Source: Rhizobium sp. Q54 (GTDB taxonomy: Bacteria > Pseudomonadota > Alphaproteobacteria > SMXQ01). From it: DNA of 48,755 nt. Every line of letters starts with the position of its first letter. Positions within the stretch are counted from its first letter, which is position 1. The notes below the pieces were generated by a model. That model had not been told where the DNA came from. It saw nothing but the letters and a program-made list of their open reading frames with translations, and searched no databases. A program made the position numbers and the translations under genes. The stretch lies in assembly GCA_945861615.1 (NCBI GenBank), contig CAMAVH010000006.1, positions 1 to 48,755 of the forward strand, written 5' to 3'. This document shows, piece after piece, positions 19,929 through 26,727 of the stretch.

Positions 19929-21452
19929 ATGGTTCATACGGCGATCACCCCGACCCCCGTCATGGGATGCGAGCTGCTCAGCGTGTCGGAAATGATGCGC
20001 GCCGATGCCTTGGCTGTCGCAGGTGGAGTTCCCGGCTTGCAACTGATGGAGGCGGCCGGCAAGGCGGTCGCCGACGCCGTGCGGGCGCGCTGGCCACGCC
20101 GCAGGGTTCTCGTCCTGGCCGGCCCCGGCAACAATGGCGGTGATGGTTTTGTCGCCGCGCGCCATCTCGCAGGCGAGGGCTGGGACGTGCGCGTCGCATT
20201 ACTCGGCGAGCGCGTCAACCTCAAAGGCGATGCGGCCCATCACGCGGCGCGATGGGCCGGAAATCTCCTTCCGCTCTCACCCGACATTCTGAATGACGGC
20301 GATCTGGTCATCGACGCATTGTTCGGCGCCGGGCTGACCCGCCCTTTGAGCGGCGTGGCCGCCGCGGTCGTTAGCCAACTTGTGGCGCGCGGCATGCCTT
20401 GCCTGGCGGTCGATCTGCCGAGCGGATTGGCGGGCGACAGCGGCATTCCGCTCGGCGAGGTGGTCGTGCGCGCCACGGCGACCGTCACCTTTTTTCGCAA
20501 GAAGCCGGCCCATCTGCTGTGGCCAGGGCGCGGCCTTTGCGGCGATGTAACCTTGGCCGACATCGGGATCCCGGCCGCGGCCATCGCCGCCTTGGCGCCG
20601 CAGACCTTCGAGAATTTGCCGAGCTTGTGGCGGGCAAGATTTCCGACGCCGACCCCGACCGCTCACAAATATACGCGCGGCCATCTTGTTGTCGCCGGTG
20701 GCGCGGCGCGGCTGGCGGCGCGCGCCGGTCAGCGCGCCGGTGCGGGCATGGTGAGCGTCGCCTGTCCGCCCGAGGTTGCGGCGATCTATGCGGCGGATCT
20801 GCTTTCCGCCGTGGTCGCGCCGGTCGCCGATCTTGCCGCTTTTATCAGATTGATCGAGACGCGCCGCGTCGCGGCGGCCGTCGTCGGCCCGGGTAACGGC
20901 ATCGGCGAGGCGACGCGCGCGCAGGTCCTGGCGGTGCTGACCGCCGGAGTGCCATGCGTACTCGATGCCGACGCCTTGACGACGTTTGCCGACAACCGCC
21001 CGCAAGGACCGGGCGAATTGTTCGCGGCGATCGCAGCCTCGCCCAGTCAAGCGTTGGGGGGCGCCTGCATCCTGACGCCGCATGAGGGCGAGTTCGCCCG
21101 ACTGTTTCGCGACATCGATCCCGCGGCCGACAAGCTGACGCGGGCCCGGGCGGCGGCCAGACAGTCGGGCGCGGTGGTCGTGCTTAAGGGCTATGACAGT
21201 GTGATCGCTGCGCCGGACGGCCGAGCGGCGGTCAACGGCAACGCTCCGGCTTTCCTGGCGACGGCTGGGGCGGGCGACGTGCTGGCCGGGCTGGCGGGCG
21301 GCCTGCTCGCGCAAAGCATGCCGGCCTTCGAGGCCGCGGCGGCGGCGGTTTGGCTCCAGGGGGCGGCGGCCAGCGCCTTCGGGCCGGGCCTCATCGCCGA
21401 TGACCTGCCAGGCGAGATTCCCTTGGTTTTACGGGATTTTTTCGCGAACTGA
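19929..21452 (+). CDS. nnrD: Bifunctional NAD(P)H-hydrate epimerase / ADP-dependent dehydratase
   Basis: 507 residues from the ATG at 19929 with GAGGA before it; an in-frame start at 19860 adds an Arg-rich tail that looks non-coding. The enzyme repairs NAD(P)H damaged by hydration. The N-terminal epimerase domain (about 16-225) shows the GLQLMEAAG helix and AGPGNNGGDGFVAARHLAGEG (64-84). The C-terminal ribokinase-like dehydratase domain (about 240-500) has TRGHLVVAGG, LDADALT, ILTPHEGEFARLF, VLKGYDSVIAAPDG and the catalytic TAGAGDVLAGLAGG. Full-length fused form, also called nnr/yjeF. In many Alphaproteobacteria this gene sits just before glnB; here it does not. Confidence 0.95.
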   Translation: MVHTAITPTPVMGCELLSVSEMMRADALAVAGGVPGLQLMEAAGKAVADAVRARWPRRRVLVLAGPGNNGGDGFVAARHLAGEGWDVRVALLGERVNLKGDAAHHAARWAGNLLPLSPDILNDGDLVIDALFGAGLTRPLSGVAAAVVSQLVARGMPCLAVDLPSGLAGDSGIPLGEVVVRATATVTFFRKKPAHLLWPGRGLCGDVTLADIGIPAAAIAALAPQTFENLPSLWRARFPTPTPTAHKYTRGHLVVAGGAARLAARAGQRAGAGMVSVACPPEVAAIYAADLLSAVVAPVADLAAFIRLIETRRVAAAVVGPGNGIGEATRAQVLAVLTAGVPCVLDADALTTFADNRPQGPGELFAAIAASPSQALGGACILTPHEGEFARLFRDIDPAADKLTRARAAARQSGAVVVLKGYDSVIAAPDGRAAVNGNAPAFLATAGAGDVLAGLAGGLLAQSMPAFEAAAAAVWLQGAAASAFGPGLIADDLPGEIPLVLRDFFAN

Positions 21453-21475
21453 CCGACGTTCTATCCCATCCCGCC

Positions 21476-21484
21476 TGTGGATAA
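21476..21484 (-). promoter_or_regulatory. Perfect DnaA-box sequence
   Basis: TTATCCACA on the minus strand, identical to the E. coli R1 box and to the sequence at 4952-4960. It lies in the 199-bp gap between nnrD and the small gene at 21652, a region that turns AT-rich from about 21505. A single 9-mer proves no function, but two copies in intergenic DNA within 17 kb merit a note. Confidence 0.45.
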
Positions 21485-21651
21485 TTCAGGGATACGACTG
21501 TGGGAAAGATTGCATTTTAACTTAATTTGGAGGTAGAAGACGTTGTTATCTCAGCTACTTTTCCATTCTCCATTAACCCGTCGTTAAACCTTCTCCATTA
21601 CCGATGTAGTTCTAGGCAATTGCCTAAAACCCCAGGGGGCATCGTTCGAAG

Positions 21652-21912
21652 ATGTTGGCAAAACTTTTCAAACGAGACGAGCCGGCAATCGAAAAAGGTT
21701 GCGTCTATCGCCGTGTGCGCATGGACCGCACCGTCGAGACGGCGAAGGTGATCAGTCTCTACAAAGACTCTTTCGGCATTCCGCATGTGCGCTATCAGGT
21801 CGTGTTCGGCCGTGTCGATGGCGTGCCGCATCATGACGGCCAGCGCATGCTCTCGGTCGATGCCTTCATCCAGCAATATGGCGAGCGTATCGTTCACGCG
21901 ACGACCCACTAA
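21652..21912 (+). CDS. Small conserved-looking cytoplasmic protein, function unknown
   Basis: 86 residues, not recognised. The composition is that of a real folded protein: basic start MLAKLFKRDEPAIEKG, then alternating strand-like segments (VYRRVRMDRTVETAKVISLYKD, PHVRYQVVFGRV) and a short helix (LSVDAFIQQYGERIV). It has no signal peptide or membrane segment. The segment ETAKVISLYKDSFGIPHVRYQVVF resembles a small beta-barrel (SH3-like) fold, which is only an impression. A good terminator follows 22 bases after the stop, and the 199-bp upstream gap is AT-rich, so it is probably a monocistronic, independently regulated gene. Confidence 0.78.
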   Translation: MLAKLFKRDEPAIEKGCVYRRVRMDRTVETAKVISLYKDSFGIPHVRYQVVFGRVDGVPHHDGQRMLSVDAFIQQYGERIVHATTH

Positions 21913-21933
21913 CCCGCGCCTCATACGCCGCTC

Positions 21934-21964
21934 AAAGCCGCCGGCCTGCGCCGTGCGGCTTTTT
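21934..21964 (+). terminator. Intrinsic terminator of the 86-residue gene
   Basis: AAAGCCGC (21934-21941), a GC-rich loop, GCGGCTTT (21955-21962) and a T5 run, 22 bases after the stop codon. Confidence 0.85.
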
Positions 21965-22052
21965 CATTTTCGCATCACGATGGAAATGCTGTAAAGCCCT
22001 GAGACCGCTTTGAGTCGCGCCGTCGGGGGTGCTTCGGTTCGAGTAGGCTGCG

Positions 22053-22415
22053 ATGACGTTTAAATGTACTTGCGACGAGACGCGTACCGAGAGTGTTCGG
22101 CAGCGCCTGCTTCGCACGGCGCTGCCGTATTGTTTCTATCTCAAGCTCATGAACCGGCCGATCTTCGAGTTCGACAGCGAAGACGACATGATGCGCGCGG
22201 TGGCCGCAACCGATGGCCAATTGATCATGCTGAGCTCCCATGTGCCGCCCCGGGCCAAGGAAAAGCTGAGCCTGACAGCGGGACCAGGCGGGGCGTCGCG
22301 AATGCCAAAAGAGGCAATCTTTCGCCGGATCGGTCCGCTGTTCTCCGGCGCGTCGGCGGGGGCCAGTCTGCGGCCCGCCCGTCTTTCCAGGCAGGCGCCA
22401 GCCAAACGCGCTTGA
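22053..22415 (+). CDS. Hypothetical protein, doubtful
   Basis: 120 codons, not recognised. The middle (about 33-78, MNRPIFEFDSEDDMMRAVAATDGQLIMLSS...) has a protein-like composition, while the C-terminal 40 residues are Ala/Arg/Ser-rich and could be non-coding. The ribosome site is weak (AGTAGG); a shorter start at 22149 (MNRPIFEF) is plausible. It lies between a terminator and the tRNA-Leu promoter region, with no partner. Overlapping minus-strand ORFs of similar size exist in the same DNA but are less protein-like. It may be a decayed or recent gene. Confidence 0.42.
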   Translation: MTFKCTCDETRTESVRQRLLRTALPYCFYLKLMNRPIFEFDSEDDMMRAVAATDGQLIMLSSHVPPRAKEKLSLTAGPGGASRMPKEAIFRRIGPLFSGASAGASLRPARLSRQAPAKRA

Positions 22416-22514
22416 GCCCGTCGGCCGCCGGATAAAGCCTCAAGCCCTTGCAAAGCCTGCGCTGCGGCACGATCTATGCCCCTTCAGGCCCTGCCGGATG
22501 GCGGCTTTCTCCTG

Positions 22515-22543
22515 TTTCCCAAAGTGGACGCGGGTGCTATAGA
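22515..22543 (+). promoter_or_regulatory. Possible promoter of tRNA-Leu
   Basis: TTTCCC (22515-22520), 17-base spacer, TATAGA (22538-22543), about 85 bases before the tRNA. The -10 is good and the -35 weak. The rest of 22416-22628 shows nothing else distinct. Confidence 0.35.
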
Positions 22544-22628
22544 AACCGCCTTTCGGGTCAAGGCGATCTCGTGGTTACCCGCGGTTCCCGTCGGCTTGGC
22601 GGGTTTAGCCGCCGGACGCCGCGCGGGG

Positions 22629-22712
<84 letters not shown>

Positions 22713-22738
22713 AATGAACGCTAGCAGTCCACTTCAAG

Positions 22739-22756
22739 CGCGCCGGTTCCGGCGCG
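22739..22756 (+). repeat. Short GC hairpin between tRNA-Leu and tig
   Basis: CGCGCCGG and CCGGCGCG separated by TT: self-complementary over 18 bases. No T-run follows, so it is not a standard terminator; it may mark the 3' boundary of the tRNA transcript or sit in the tig leader. Confidence 0.4.
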
Positions 22757-22788
22757 GGTAAAAACCAGAGAACGACAGGACGATTTCC

Positions 22789-24264
22789 ATGCAGGTTACC
22801 GAAACGGCGAGCGAAGGGCTCAAGCGGGAATTTCTCATCCGCATCCCCGCCTCGGACATCGAGACGAAGCTCAACACTCGCCTCCAGGAAATGAGCACCA
22901 AGGTAAAGCAGCCCGGCTTCCGTCCGGGCAAGGTGCCGATGGCCCTGCTGAAGAAGCAGTACGGCCCGTCGCTCATGGGCGAAATTCTCGAGCAGGCCGT
23001 CAATGACGGCACGCGCGATGCCTTGAACGAAAAAGGCCTGCGCCCGGCGATGCAGCCGCGCATCGAGATTAAGTCGTTCGAAGAGGGCGGCGACCTCGAG
23101 TACGCCATCGCCGTCGAGCTGATCCCGGAGATCAAGCCGCTGGCCTTCAGCGACATCAAGGTCGAGAAGCCGACCGTGATGATCGACGACAAGGCGATCG
23201 ACGAGGCCGCCCAGCGCCTGCTGACGAGCAACCGCGTCTTCGAGAAAACGGAAGATGCCGGTCGCGCCGCGACGAAGGAAGACCAGTTGCTGGTCGATTT
23301 CATCGGCCGCGTCGGCGGCACGCCGTTCGACGGCGGCACCGCCAAGGACTTCGAAGTCGCCATGGACTCGGCCGGCTTCATCCCCGGCTTCATCGAGCAG
23401 ATGCATGGCTCGAAGGCCGGCGACAAGTTGACCGTGAAGGTGAAATTCCCCGACGAGTACGGCAATGCCGATCTGGCCGGCAAGGATGCCGAGTTCGAAG
23501 TCGATGTGAAGGAAGTGCGCCTGCCCAAGGCGGCGACCCTCGACGATGCCTTCGCCAAGACCATCGGCTTCGAGAGCCTCGCGGACCTGAAGAAGGGCCT
23601 CAAGGAGCGCATGGAGCAGGAATATGCTCAGGTCACGCGCATGCGCGTGAAACGCAACCTGCTCGACAAGCTCGCCGCCAAGTGCGACTTCGAGACGCCG
23701 ACGGGCCTGGTGGACAGCGAGTTCGCCGGTATTTGGCAGCAGATGACCGGTCAGGCGCCGGAGCACGATGCCGAGACCTGCAACGATCCGAGCCACGATC
23801 ACAGCCATGACCATGCCGGCCACGATCACGCCGGTCACGATCACGAGGGCCACGATCACGAGGGCCACGACCATCCGCCGGCCACCGACGTGCTCAAGGA
23901 CAAGACGCCGGAAGAGATCGAGAAGCTGAAGGCGGAATACCGCACCATTGCCGAGCGCCGCGTGAAGCTCGGCCTGCTGCTGTCGGAGACCGGCCGCGCC
24001 AACAAGATCGAGATTTCCAAGGACGATCTGAACCGCGCGCTGCTCAACGAAGCCCGTCGTTTCCCCGGCCAGGAGCGCATGGTGTTCGAGTTCTACCAGA
24101 AGAACCCGGAAGCCCTGGAGCAGCTCCGCGCCCCGGTGTTCGAGGACAAGGTCATCGACTACATCCTCGAACTGGCCAAGGTCGAGGAGAAGAAGGTGAC
24201 GGCCGAGGAGTTGATGCGCGACCCGGACGATGAGAAAGACGACGTCGCCGGCGCCAAGAAGTAA
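22789..24264 (+). CDS. tig: Trigger factor with a histidine-rich insertion
   Basis: 491 residues; most trigger factors are about 430-450. This ribosome-bound chaperone and peptidyl-prolyl isomerase meets nascent chains. The ribosome-binding domain has the signature FRPGKVPMALLKKQYG (44-59; usually GFRxGKxP). The FKBP-type isomerase domain is about 155-245 (DQLLVDFIGRVGG, GFIPGFIEQMHGSKAGD, FPDEYGNADLAGKDAEFEV). The C-terminal chaperone arms follow. Residues 326-362, between two arm helices (EFAGIWQQMTGQ and TPEEIEKLKAEYR), form an insertion with 13 histidines alternating mostly with Asp. It reads in frame and both flanks match the family, so it is not a frameshift. It begins the tig-clpP-clpX-lon-hupB cluster. 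Metal binding by the insertion is inferred from composition. Confidence 0.95.
   Translation: MQVTETASEGLKREFLIRIPASDIETKLNTRLQEMSTKVKQPGFRPGKVPMALLKKQYGPSLMGEILEQAVNDGTRDALNEKGLRPAMQPRIEIKSFEEGGDLEYAIAVELIPEIKPLAFSDIKVEKPTVMIDDKAIDEAAQRLLTSNRVFEKTEDAGRAATKEDQLLVDFIGRVGGTPFDGGTAKDFEVAMDSAGFIPGFIEQMHGSKAGDKLTVKVKFPDEYGNADLAGKDAEFEVDVKEVRLPKAATLDDAFAKTIGFESLADLKKGLKERMEQEYAQVTRMRVKRNLLDKLAAKCDFETPTGLVDSEFAGIWQQMTGQAPEHDAETCNDPSHDHSHDHAGHDHAGHDHEGHDHEGHDHPPATDVLKDKTPEEIEKLKAEYRTIAERRVKLGLLLSETGRANKIEISKDDLNRALLNEARRFPGQERMVFEFYQKNPEALEQLRAPVFEDKVIDYILELAKVEEKKVTAEELMRDPDDEKDDVAGAKK
23815..23874 (+). repeat. 15-bp tandem repeat encoding the His-rich loop of trigger factor
   Basis: Four consecutive 15-base units (23815-23829, -23844, -23859, -23874), each close to GAGGGCCACGATCAC and encoding AGHDH or EGHDH. 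A less regular (S)HDHSHDH segment precedes them from about 23791. Copy number could vary by replication slippage in steps of five residues without shifting the frame. Confidence 0.85.
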
Positions 24265-24295
24265 GGCCTGACGGGTTTCTTACGCACCGCGCGGT

Positions 24296-24314
24296 AACGC
24301 CTTTTGAGGCGTTT
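24296..24314 (+). terminator. Possible weak terminator or attenuator between tig and clpP
   Basis: AACGCCT (24296-24302), TTTG, AGGCGTT (24307-24313) followed by only TCCC. The 7-bp stem is good and the T-tract short, so partial read-through from tig into clpP is likely. Confidence 0.4.
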
Positions 24315-24338
24315 CCCGCGGCGCGCGAACCGGCTACT

Positions 24339-24368
24339 CTTTGTCTCACCTGTTTCCGTTTCCCCATT
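24339..24368 (+). promoter_or_regulatory. Possible heat-shock-type promoter of clpP
   Basis: CCCCATT (24362-24368) matches the sigma-32 -10 element CCCCATNT well. About 16 bases upstream is TCTTTGTC, a poor version of CTTGAA. clpP is a heat-shock gene in most Proteobacteria, which makes the match plausible but not secure. Confidence 0.32.
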
Positions 24369-24390
24369 CGTTTGTGAAGGGCGGCGCCCG

Positions 24391-25029
24391 ATGCGAGATC
24401 CGATCGATACCTACATGAACTATCTCGTTCCCATGGTGGTCGAGCAGACCAACCGCGGCGAGCGCTCCTACGACATCTATTCGCGCCTCCTCAAAGAGCG
24501 CATCATTTTCATGGTCGGCCCCGTCAACGACGCGGTGTCGAGCGTGATCTGCGCCCAGTTGCTGTTCCTGGAAGCCGAGAATCCGAACAAGGACATCTCG
24601 TACTACATCAACTCGCCCGGCGGCGTCGTCACCTCCGGCCTCGCGATCTACGACACCATGCAGTACATCCGCCCCGACGTGGCGACGATCTGCATCGGTC
24701 AGGCTGCCTCGATGGGCTCGCTGCTGCTCGCGGCCGGCGCCGAGGGCAAGCGCTTCGCTCTGCCCAACGCGCGCATCATGGTTCACCAGCCTTCGGGCGG
24801 TGCCCAAGGCCAAGCGACCGACATCGAAATCCAGGCGCGCGAAATCCTGTCGCTGCGTTCGCGCTTGAACGGCATTTACGTCAAGCACACCAAGCAGCCG
24901 CTCGACGTGATCGAGAAGGCGATGGAGCGCGATAAGTTCATGAATCCCGAAGAGGCCCAGGCTTTCGGCCTGATCGACGAGGTCTTCGTGAAGCGTCCGG
25001 CCAGCGAGAAGGTCGAAATGCCGCGCTAA
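24391..25029 (+). CDS. clpP: ATP-dependent Clp protease proteolytic subunit
   Basis: 212 residues from [19 protein letters not shown], with GAAGGGCGGC upstream; an in-frame start at 24304 would add an Arg-rich tail without a match to ClpP. ClpP forms the tetradecameric serine peptidase chamber fed by ClpX or ClpA. The triad is intact: Ser107 in GQAASMGS, His132 in [15 protein letters not shown], and Asp181 in [33 protein letters not shown] is the strand-helix that forms the substrate groove. It is 126 bp after tig and 423 bp before clpX, the common alphaproteobacterial order. Confidence 0.98.
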
Positions 25030-25067
25030 GGCGCGGTTTCGGGACGCGACACCTCGCCCTTTCGTGC

Positions 25068-25117
25068 GAAATGGCGACCGAGATGCAGGCGGGCAGGGCC
25101 ATTTCATGGCTCTGCCC
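25068..25117 (+). promoter_or_regulatory. Overlapping alternative hairpins after clpP
   Basis: A strong hairpin GGGCAGGGCCA (25091-25101), TTTCA, TGGCTCTGCCC (25107-25117, one G-T pair) overlaps a second possible pairing of GAAATGGC (25068-25075) with GCCATTTC (25098-25105). The two cannot form together. No T-run follows. It may end or attenuate clpP transcription; no ligand-binding RNA fold was recognised. Confidence 0.4.
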
Positions 25118-25181
25118 GTCGCCGTCTCCACCCGCAGGCCCTGCCATAAGCCGCTGAATCGGGCGACTTTTTCTCATGGCG

Positions 25182-25197
25182 ATCGGGTTAACCCGAT
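25182..25197. promoter_or_regulatory. 16-bp perfect palindrome upstream of clpX
   Basis: ATCGGGTTAACCCGAT is fully self-complementary and lies in the 423-bp clpP-clpX gap. It looks like a dimeric-repressor operator, or, with TTTTA directly after it, a small hairpin. Elsewhere in 25030-25452 only the hairpins at 25068 and the promoter-like sequence at 25385 stand out. Confidence 0.4.
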
Positions 25198-25384
25198 TTT
25201 AGGCCCGGATCTGGCAGTCTGTTGACTGGCTGCCCGGCTTTATTCGGCGGGGCTGCATCCCATATAGAGCGAAGGATCCACGCGATCGCTCACGCCGTTT
25301 ATGACGACAGGGACGAGAAATTCGATCGATGGTTGCCTGCCTATCGCCGCCGTCAGATCGCCTGACACCATATTTAGTATTTAG

Positions 25385-25413
25385 TTGTGCGTAGCGGACC
25401 CTGTGTCTAACAT
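25385..25413 (+). promoter_or_regulatory. Possible promoter of clpX
   Basis: TTGTGC (25385-25390), 17-base spacer, TAACAT (25408-25413), about 40 bases before the clpX start. Each hexamer matches the housekeeping consensus only in part. The long gap after clpP makes a separate clpX promoter likely somewhere here. Confidence 0.33.
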
Positions 25414-25452: not shown

Positions 25453-26727
25453 ATGAGCAAGTCCAGCGGCAGCGGCGAATCGCGTAACACCCTCTACTGT
25501 TCTTTCTGCGGAAAGAGCCAGCATGAGGTGCGCAAGCTCATCGCCGGACCGACCGTGTTCATCTGCGACGAATGCGTCGAGCTTTGCATGGATATCATCC
25601 GTGAAGAGCACAAGACGACGCTGGTCCGTTCGCAGGACGGCGTGCCGTCCCCGCGCGACATCTGCACCGTGCTCGATGACTATGTCATCGGCCAGGTGCA
25701 TGCCAAGCGCGTCCTCTCGGTCGCGGTGCACAACCATTACAAGCGTCTCGCCCACGGCCAGAAGGCCAACGACGTCGAACTCGCGAAGTCGAACATCCTA
25801 CTGATCGGCCCGACCGGCTGCGGCAAGACTCTGCTGGCCCAGACGCTGGCGCGCATCCTCGACGTGCCCTTCACGATGGCCGACGCGACGACCCTGACCG
25901 AAGCCGGCTATGTCGGCGAGGACGTCGAGAACATCATCCTCAAGCTGCTGCAGTCCGCCGACTACAATGTCGAGCGTGCGCAGCGCGGCATCGTCTACAT
26001 CGACGAAGTCGACAAGATTTCCCGCAAGTCCGATAACCCGTCGATCACCCGCGACGTGTCGGGCGAGGGCGTGCAGCAGGCTTTGCTCAAGATCATGGAA
26101 GGCACCGTTGCCTCCGTGCCGCCGCAGGGCGGGCGCAAACATCCGCAGCAGGAATTCCTGCAGGTCGACACGACGAACATTCTCTTCATCTGCGGCGGCG
26201 CCTTCGCCGGCCTGGAGAAGATCATCTCGGCGCGCGGTCGCGGCACCTCTATCGGCTTCGGCGCCGATGTGCGCGCCCCGGAAGACCGCCAGACCGGCGA
26301 GCTTCTGCGCGAGGTCGAGCCCGAAGATTTGTTGAAGTTCGGCCTGATCCCCGAGTTCGTCGGTCGCCTGCCGGTGGTCGCGACGCTCGACGATCTCGAC
26401 GAAGAAGCCTTGGTCGACATCCTCACCGTTCCGAAGAACGCCCTGGTGAAGCAGTACCAGCGTCTCTACGAGATGGAGAATGTCCGCCTCGAATTCTCCG
26501 AAGACGCCTTGAAGGGAGTCGCTCGCAAGGCAATCCAGCGCAAGACCGGCGCGCGCGGCCTACGTTCGATCATGGAGACCATTCTCCTCGAATCGATGTT
26601 CGAGTTGCCGGGCTTGGAAGGCGTCGAAGAGATCGTGATCAACAAAGAGGTGGTCGAAGGCCGTGCGAAGCCCCTCTACATCTATTCGGACCGTCGTGAT
26701 GAGACGGGCGCTGGCGCCAGCGCCTGA
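25453..26727 (+). CDS. clpX: ATP-dependent Clp protease ATP-binding subunit ClpX
   Basis: 424 residues, normal length. ClpX is the hexameric AAA+ unfoldase that delivers tagged substrates to ClpP. The N-terminal zinc finger has Cys16, Cys19, Cys38 and Cys41 ([16 protein letters not shown]). Walker A GPTGCGKT is at 119-126, the pore loop with GYVG follows at [13 protein letters not shown], and Walker B is [10 protein letters not shown]. The [18 protein letters not shown] segment near the C-terminus is the sensor-2 region, and the ClpP-contact IGF-type loop appears as TSIGFGADV. Every functional motif is intact. In Alphaproteobacteria ClpXP is central to cell-cycle proteolysis. Confidence 0.98.

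Follow-up and report, generated by a model that had tools for sequence, protein, structure and literature searches.

The chaperone arm of trigger factor (TF) cradles nascent chains, and in E. coli the protein is abundant. E. coli Tig (1w26) combines three domains with a ribosome-binding GFRxGKxP motif, is encoded by a single gene in a clpP-clpX-lon order, and has about 18 residues at the hairpin of its arm. Among the proteins that carry histidine-rich metal tracts, SlyD is one of the closest known parallels. SlyD is an FKBP-type PPIase and a nickel chaperone with a His-rich C-terminal tail, and the PPIase domain of TF resembles the SlyD FKBP domain; however, SlyD is not a TF and has no ribosome-binding domain. 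Tracts of the HDH-rich type are also found on HypB and on the CobW/COG0523 GTPases, which are GTPase insertases, while TF has no nucleotide-binding domain.

The His stretch of HypB binds 18 Ni per dimer (PMC2770081). A housekeeping chaperone can acquire one as well: HspA, the GroES homologue of Helicobacter pylori, has a His/Cys-rich C-terminal extension that acts as a nickel sequestration domain (PMC7840056). More generally, His/Asp-rich low-complexity regions are enriched in Co/Ni-binding proteins (PMC6821194). No description of His-rich TFs was found in a search that covered mainly open papers. What is new here is the host protein, for which that search gave no such report, and not the His-rich metal tract, which is a known type of feature.

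Results

The trigger factor gene and its surroundings

The window, that is, the whole stretch of DNA analysed, comprises 48,755 nucleotides from Rhizobium sp. Q54 and carries a tig gene whose features are collected in Table 1. The three Pfam domains Trigger_N (132.5 bits), FKBP_C (54.2 bits) and Trigger_C (112.1 bits) were found in this order, all far above the cut-off, and the ribosome-binding motif is present as GFRPGKVP, with G43, F44, R45, P46 and G47 invariant in the alignment. Foldseek on the TF model returned 2vrh (E 5.7e-35) and 1w26 (E 5.1e-34) as the top solved matches; the TM score was only about 0.5 and the rmsd was high, probably due to differing domain placement. The gene was the sole match in a search of its own genome, indicating one copy, and clpP, clpX and lon come next, an order that is usual for these housekeeping genes. 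In domains, motif, fold, copy number and gene order, this TF agrees with E. coli Tig.

An Rfam scan over positions 21400-25400 around tig identified tRNA only, with no riboswitch and no other family, and no metal-linked regulatory element was seen within the same range. An antisense ORF of 438 aa (22558-23874, minus strand) begins within the His tract (MVVALVIVALVIV...); it overlaps tig and was rejected as a gene, since the repeat codons generate it mechanically. Position 23874 is thus both the noted end of the His tract and the start of this ORF, a coincidence that does not count as evidence of a gene.

Table 1. Features of the tig locus, in window coordinates; residue numbers refer to the TF protein.
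Feature	Position	Strand	Basis
tRNA-Leu(tag), directly upstream of tig	22629..22712	+	ARAGORN
tig, trigger factor, 491 aa	22789..24264	+	ORF, Pfam, single match in own genome
N-terminal ribosome-binding domain, residues 1-143	22789..23217	+	PF05697 1.8e-38
FKBP-type PPIase domain, residues 159-240	23263..23508	+	PF00254 1.9e-14
Helix before loop, residues 305-320	23701..23748	+	AlphaFold2 model, DSSP
His-rich tract, residues 326-362, 13 His, 1 Cys, predicted disordered	23764..23874	+	sequence; pLDDT <50 for 327-365
15-bp tandem array coding GHDH(A/E) units, 5.3 copies, 82% match	23804..23885	+	TRF
Helix after loop, residues 374-404	23908..24000	+	AlphaFold2 model, DSSP
clpP, downstream of tig	24391..25029	+	ORF translation, assigned by eye
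clpX, after clpP, then lon	25453-26727		ORF translation, assigned by eye

Composition and predicted position of the histidine-rich tract

The tract reads HDAETCNDPSHDHSHDHAGHDHAGHDHEGHDHEGHDH and holds 13 His in 37 residues, with only one further His in the rest of the protein (13 of 14 within the tract). The binomial chance of at least 13 His in 37 residues is about 5e-19 if His makes up 0.7%, its share in TFs once the loop is set aside, and about 2e-13 if it makes up 2%. In an AlphaFold2 model built with 29 related sequences (mean pLDDT 84), the tract is placed at a hairpin of the chaperone arm, with one helix on either side, and the pLDDT there falls below 50. This hairpin region comprises about 64 residues (query 319-382) vs about 18 in E. 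coli TF, and the alignment with 1w26 breaks at 317 and 336. A first-pass annotation, made from the sequence alone, had counted these 13 His, put the insert between helices of the arm and held that E. coli TF lacks such a loop; the ORF translation reproduced its count and coordinates exactly, and the model and the structural comparison bear out the other two points.

A flexible tract rich in His, along with Asp or Cys, is also what metallochaperones of the SlyD, HypB and UreE type carry. The protein itself does not belong with SlyD, which is defined by an FKBP plus IF domain, a C-terminal His tail and the lack of a ribosome-binding domain, whereas Trigger_N, Trigger_C and an internal arm loop were found here. 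From its predicted position, the tract may contact nascent chains.

The loop in close relatives

The order consists of one family, from which 11 genomes were compared. The His-rich loop was present in nine of them, with length differences that stay in frame, while both genomes of genus g3 are without it (G382 as aligned, G216 with 36 bp between the flanking matches). Absence from close relatives had been set out beforehand as the observation that would speak against the loop, and the nine carriers answer it. Since the loop was found in independent genomes of the order, an assembly artefact was rejected as well. In the sister species (94% identity), the loop contains 11 His and is shorter by 4 residues, without loss of the reading frame. 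When the codons of the two species were aligned, 89 synonymous and 23 non-synonymous differences were counted in the rest of the gene, compared with 5 and 4 in the loop. The loop changes faster than the rest of the gene, yet it retains its His.

Distribution among Alphaproteobacteria

TFs were collected mostly from 385 alphaproteobacterial genomes, and the 151 that could be aligned over the loop were the best-scoring ones. The same hairpin has at least 5 His in 27 of these 151 TFs and no His in 110. Because the aligned TFs are the best-scoring ones, the true share in the class must be lower than 27/151; counting known cases, it is about 24 of the 364 genomes with a TF match. A His-rich TF is a minority trait, and most alphaproteobacterial TFs have no tract. 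Nevertheless, as read from the alignment, the trait is not confined to this genome and recurs at the same hairpin across the class, in about a dozen families, a point that the first-pass annotation had missed. On a TF tree built without the loop, at least 11 changes of the His state were required, at least six of which are forced by well-supported branches. Such a difference was seen within genus g185, in which the TF loop holds 18 His in G380 (L004, 5.6 Mb) and 2 in the reduced genome G302 (L276, 1.5 Mb). G302 is additionally without nitrile hydratase and NicO.

His-richness and loop length go together. None of the loops shorter than 30 residues (n = 114, median 25) is His-rich, whereas 27 of the 37 loops with at least 30 residues are, their tracts consisting of 49% His and 33% Asp. 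The ten other long loops (among them L015, L018, L019 and L192) are not His-rich, and the alignment thus indicates that the hairpin site is tolerant of inserts. Long loops are nonetheless not random low-complexity sequence, because 27 of 37 are His-rich although His makes up 0.7% elsewhere in TF. A draw of 60 Pseudomonadota genomes, from which 30 TFs were read, yielded no arm loop and one weak His tail.

Tracts elsewhere on trigger factor and on other proteins

His-rich tracts were also identified at other places on TF. Among the loci found, those from Acidobacteriota have it as an N-terminal extension, those from Actinomycetota, Sphingomonas, Myxococcales and others as a C-terminal tail, and those from Patescibacteria, a Bacteroidetes and an Anaerolineae MAG within the PPIase region. 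The tract also forms a tail in two TFs of Alphaproteobacteria (L148, L160). The loci from other phyla were partly found through the peptide HDHEGHDH, and they demonstrate existence and position rather than frequency. The Patescibacteria TFs L078, L084 and L101 are about 375-400 aa long and have their His-rich stretch near model position 150, the expected start of the PPIase domain, which may be reduced in them.

When the 385 alphaproteobacterial genomes were searched for exact matches to HDHDHDHDH codons, 65 had at least one, and the first-listed locus of each of these was classified; as the search tool sets the order of listing within a genome, the counts are approximate. TF was the commonest first-listed carrier (17 of 65), followed by CobW/HypB-type GTPases (15) and nitrile hydratase (12), several loci of the latter two groups being assigned by eye from sequence and not by Pfam. 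NicO, UreE, ZnuA, ABC ATPases and TonB receptors accounted for two each, the metal role being putative for the ABC ATPases and TonB receptors, and a CDF, a P-type ATPase and DabA for one each. About 8 of the 65 were without a clear metal link, namely two FtsX-like permeases, two PPDK_N proteins, an RNase E, a DAP epimerase and two unassigned loci. Metal transporters, insertases and metalloenzymes make up most of the other proteins that share the motif, which travels with metal handling. This census upholds the earlier suggestion that the make-up of the tract matches that of metal-chaperone tracts. The PPDK_N/PEP-utilising proteins L184 (G208) and L185 (G298) have long HDH tracts between domains and no obvious role in metal insertion.

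In the genome studied here, HDH stretches are also borne by a CobW-type GTPase, a nitrile hydratase alpha subunit, a GBBH-like_N protein and a TSCPD protein. The nitrile hydratase alpha subunit (G000:C124, L173, 648-1370) has an N-terminal HDHDHDHDHDHGHDHGH tract, and the GBBH-like_N (PF06155) protein of 227 aa (G000:C39, L129, 1003-1683) has a very long His-rich N-terminal half. The TSCPD-domain protein (G000:C14, L126, 9-491), which on inspection by eye looks like the end of a class II ribonucleotide reductase, has HDDHGHDHKGHDH ahead of a Cys-rich zinc-finger-like end.

To point to the metal, carriage of the TF tract was compared with that of two metal-linked markers in 27 carriers and 53 non-carriers. 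Nitrile hydratase alpha was found in 20/27 carriers and 39/53 non-carriers (p = 1), and for NicO transporters p was 0.07, or 0.63 when only matches over the cut-off were counted. These null results neither show nor exclude metal delivery to a client.

Repeat array and codon mixing

The first-pass annotation had described four 15-bp tandem units at the 3' end of the tract and proposed that the repeat could change length by slippage. The units are indeed there, as the array consists of four GHDHx units and one SHDHA unit, but slippage as the current driver found no support. Across 27 tracts, adjacent HD units are DNA-identical in 47 of 180 cases, compared with an expectation of 49.6 when those codons are shuffled. 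Recent slippage is disfavoured as the general source because the codons are mixed, with no surplus of identical neighbours. What persists is the peptide and not the DNA repeat. The mild 15-bp array of this genome is a local exception to the codon mixing.

These data bear on the view that the hairpin is simply unconstrained and has collected slippage-made His/Asp repeats with no function. The non-His inserts at the same site, the array at this locus and the fact that the genus's two genomes differ in loop length are what such tolerated low-complexity DNA would produce. It would not readily account for the predominance of His among the long loops, for HD codons as mixed as shuffled ones, for the reappearance of tracts at unrelated TF sites in other phyla, or for the company of metal proteins in which the motif is mostly found, and we consider it unlikely.

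Discussion

The results are best accommodated, in our judgement, if the tract is a convergent, disordered His/Asp appendage of the arm hairpin that binds metal, through which the abundant, ribosome-associated TF doubles as a metal buffer or donor pool, and we regard this as probable. The tract probably grips metal ions, and we infer both metal binding and a role in buffering. Most likely, several transition-metal ions, of Zn, Ni or Co, would be held by the His/Asp tract in a weak and exchangeable manner, and the cytosol would thereby gain a metal buffer or donor in TF. Selection for metal handling would have filled the insert-tolerant hairpin with His and Asp, independently in several lineages. 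Weighing against this reading are the many alphaproteobacterial TFs and the one genus of the order that lack the tract, the failure to find a metal-linked regulatory element around tig, and carriage that followed neither nitrile hydratase nor NicO. HspA offers a likeness in that a housekeeping chaperone acquired a His-rich extension; it is a different chaperone and, to our knowledge, its extension is absent outside Helicobacter, whereas TF tracts recur in several phyla.

A wider version of this idea, in which TF is a recurrent platform of metal homeostasis in several phyla that couples metal supply to synthesis by offering metal at the tunnel exit, appears decidedly unlikely to us at present. 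We are still more doubtful of a metal-sensing switch, in which metal in the loop would not be stored and would instead alter how TF acts as a chaperone or PPIase, how long it stays on the ribosome or whether it dimerises: the location in the chaperone arm hairpin would suit it, but the sites of the tract differ between phyla, which is easier to square with a passive metal tether than with a switch tied to one position. Least probable of all is co-translational loading, the idea of the first-pass annotation, in which metalloproteins still being made would receive metal from the loop as they leave the exit tunnel, since the place of the tract on the arm of a ribosome-bound chaperone and its likeness to the tracts of insertase chaperones are set against the lack of association with nitrile hydratase or NicO and against the folding of known Ni/Co enzymes, which usually precedes metal insertion.

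If the buffer or donor reading is right and the tract does hold metal inside cells, an abundant chaperone at the ribosome exit would join the metal economy of many bacteria, a role that has not been ascribed to TF in the open literature searched. The same feature, reached independently at four places on one protein, makes a strong natural experiment. The recurrent tracts on TF hint that protein synthesis and metal handling are linked in a way so far overlooked, and how metals meet new proteins becomes testable by a simple deletion of the loop.
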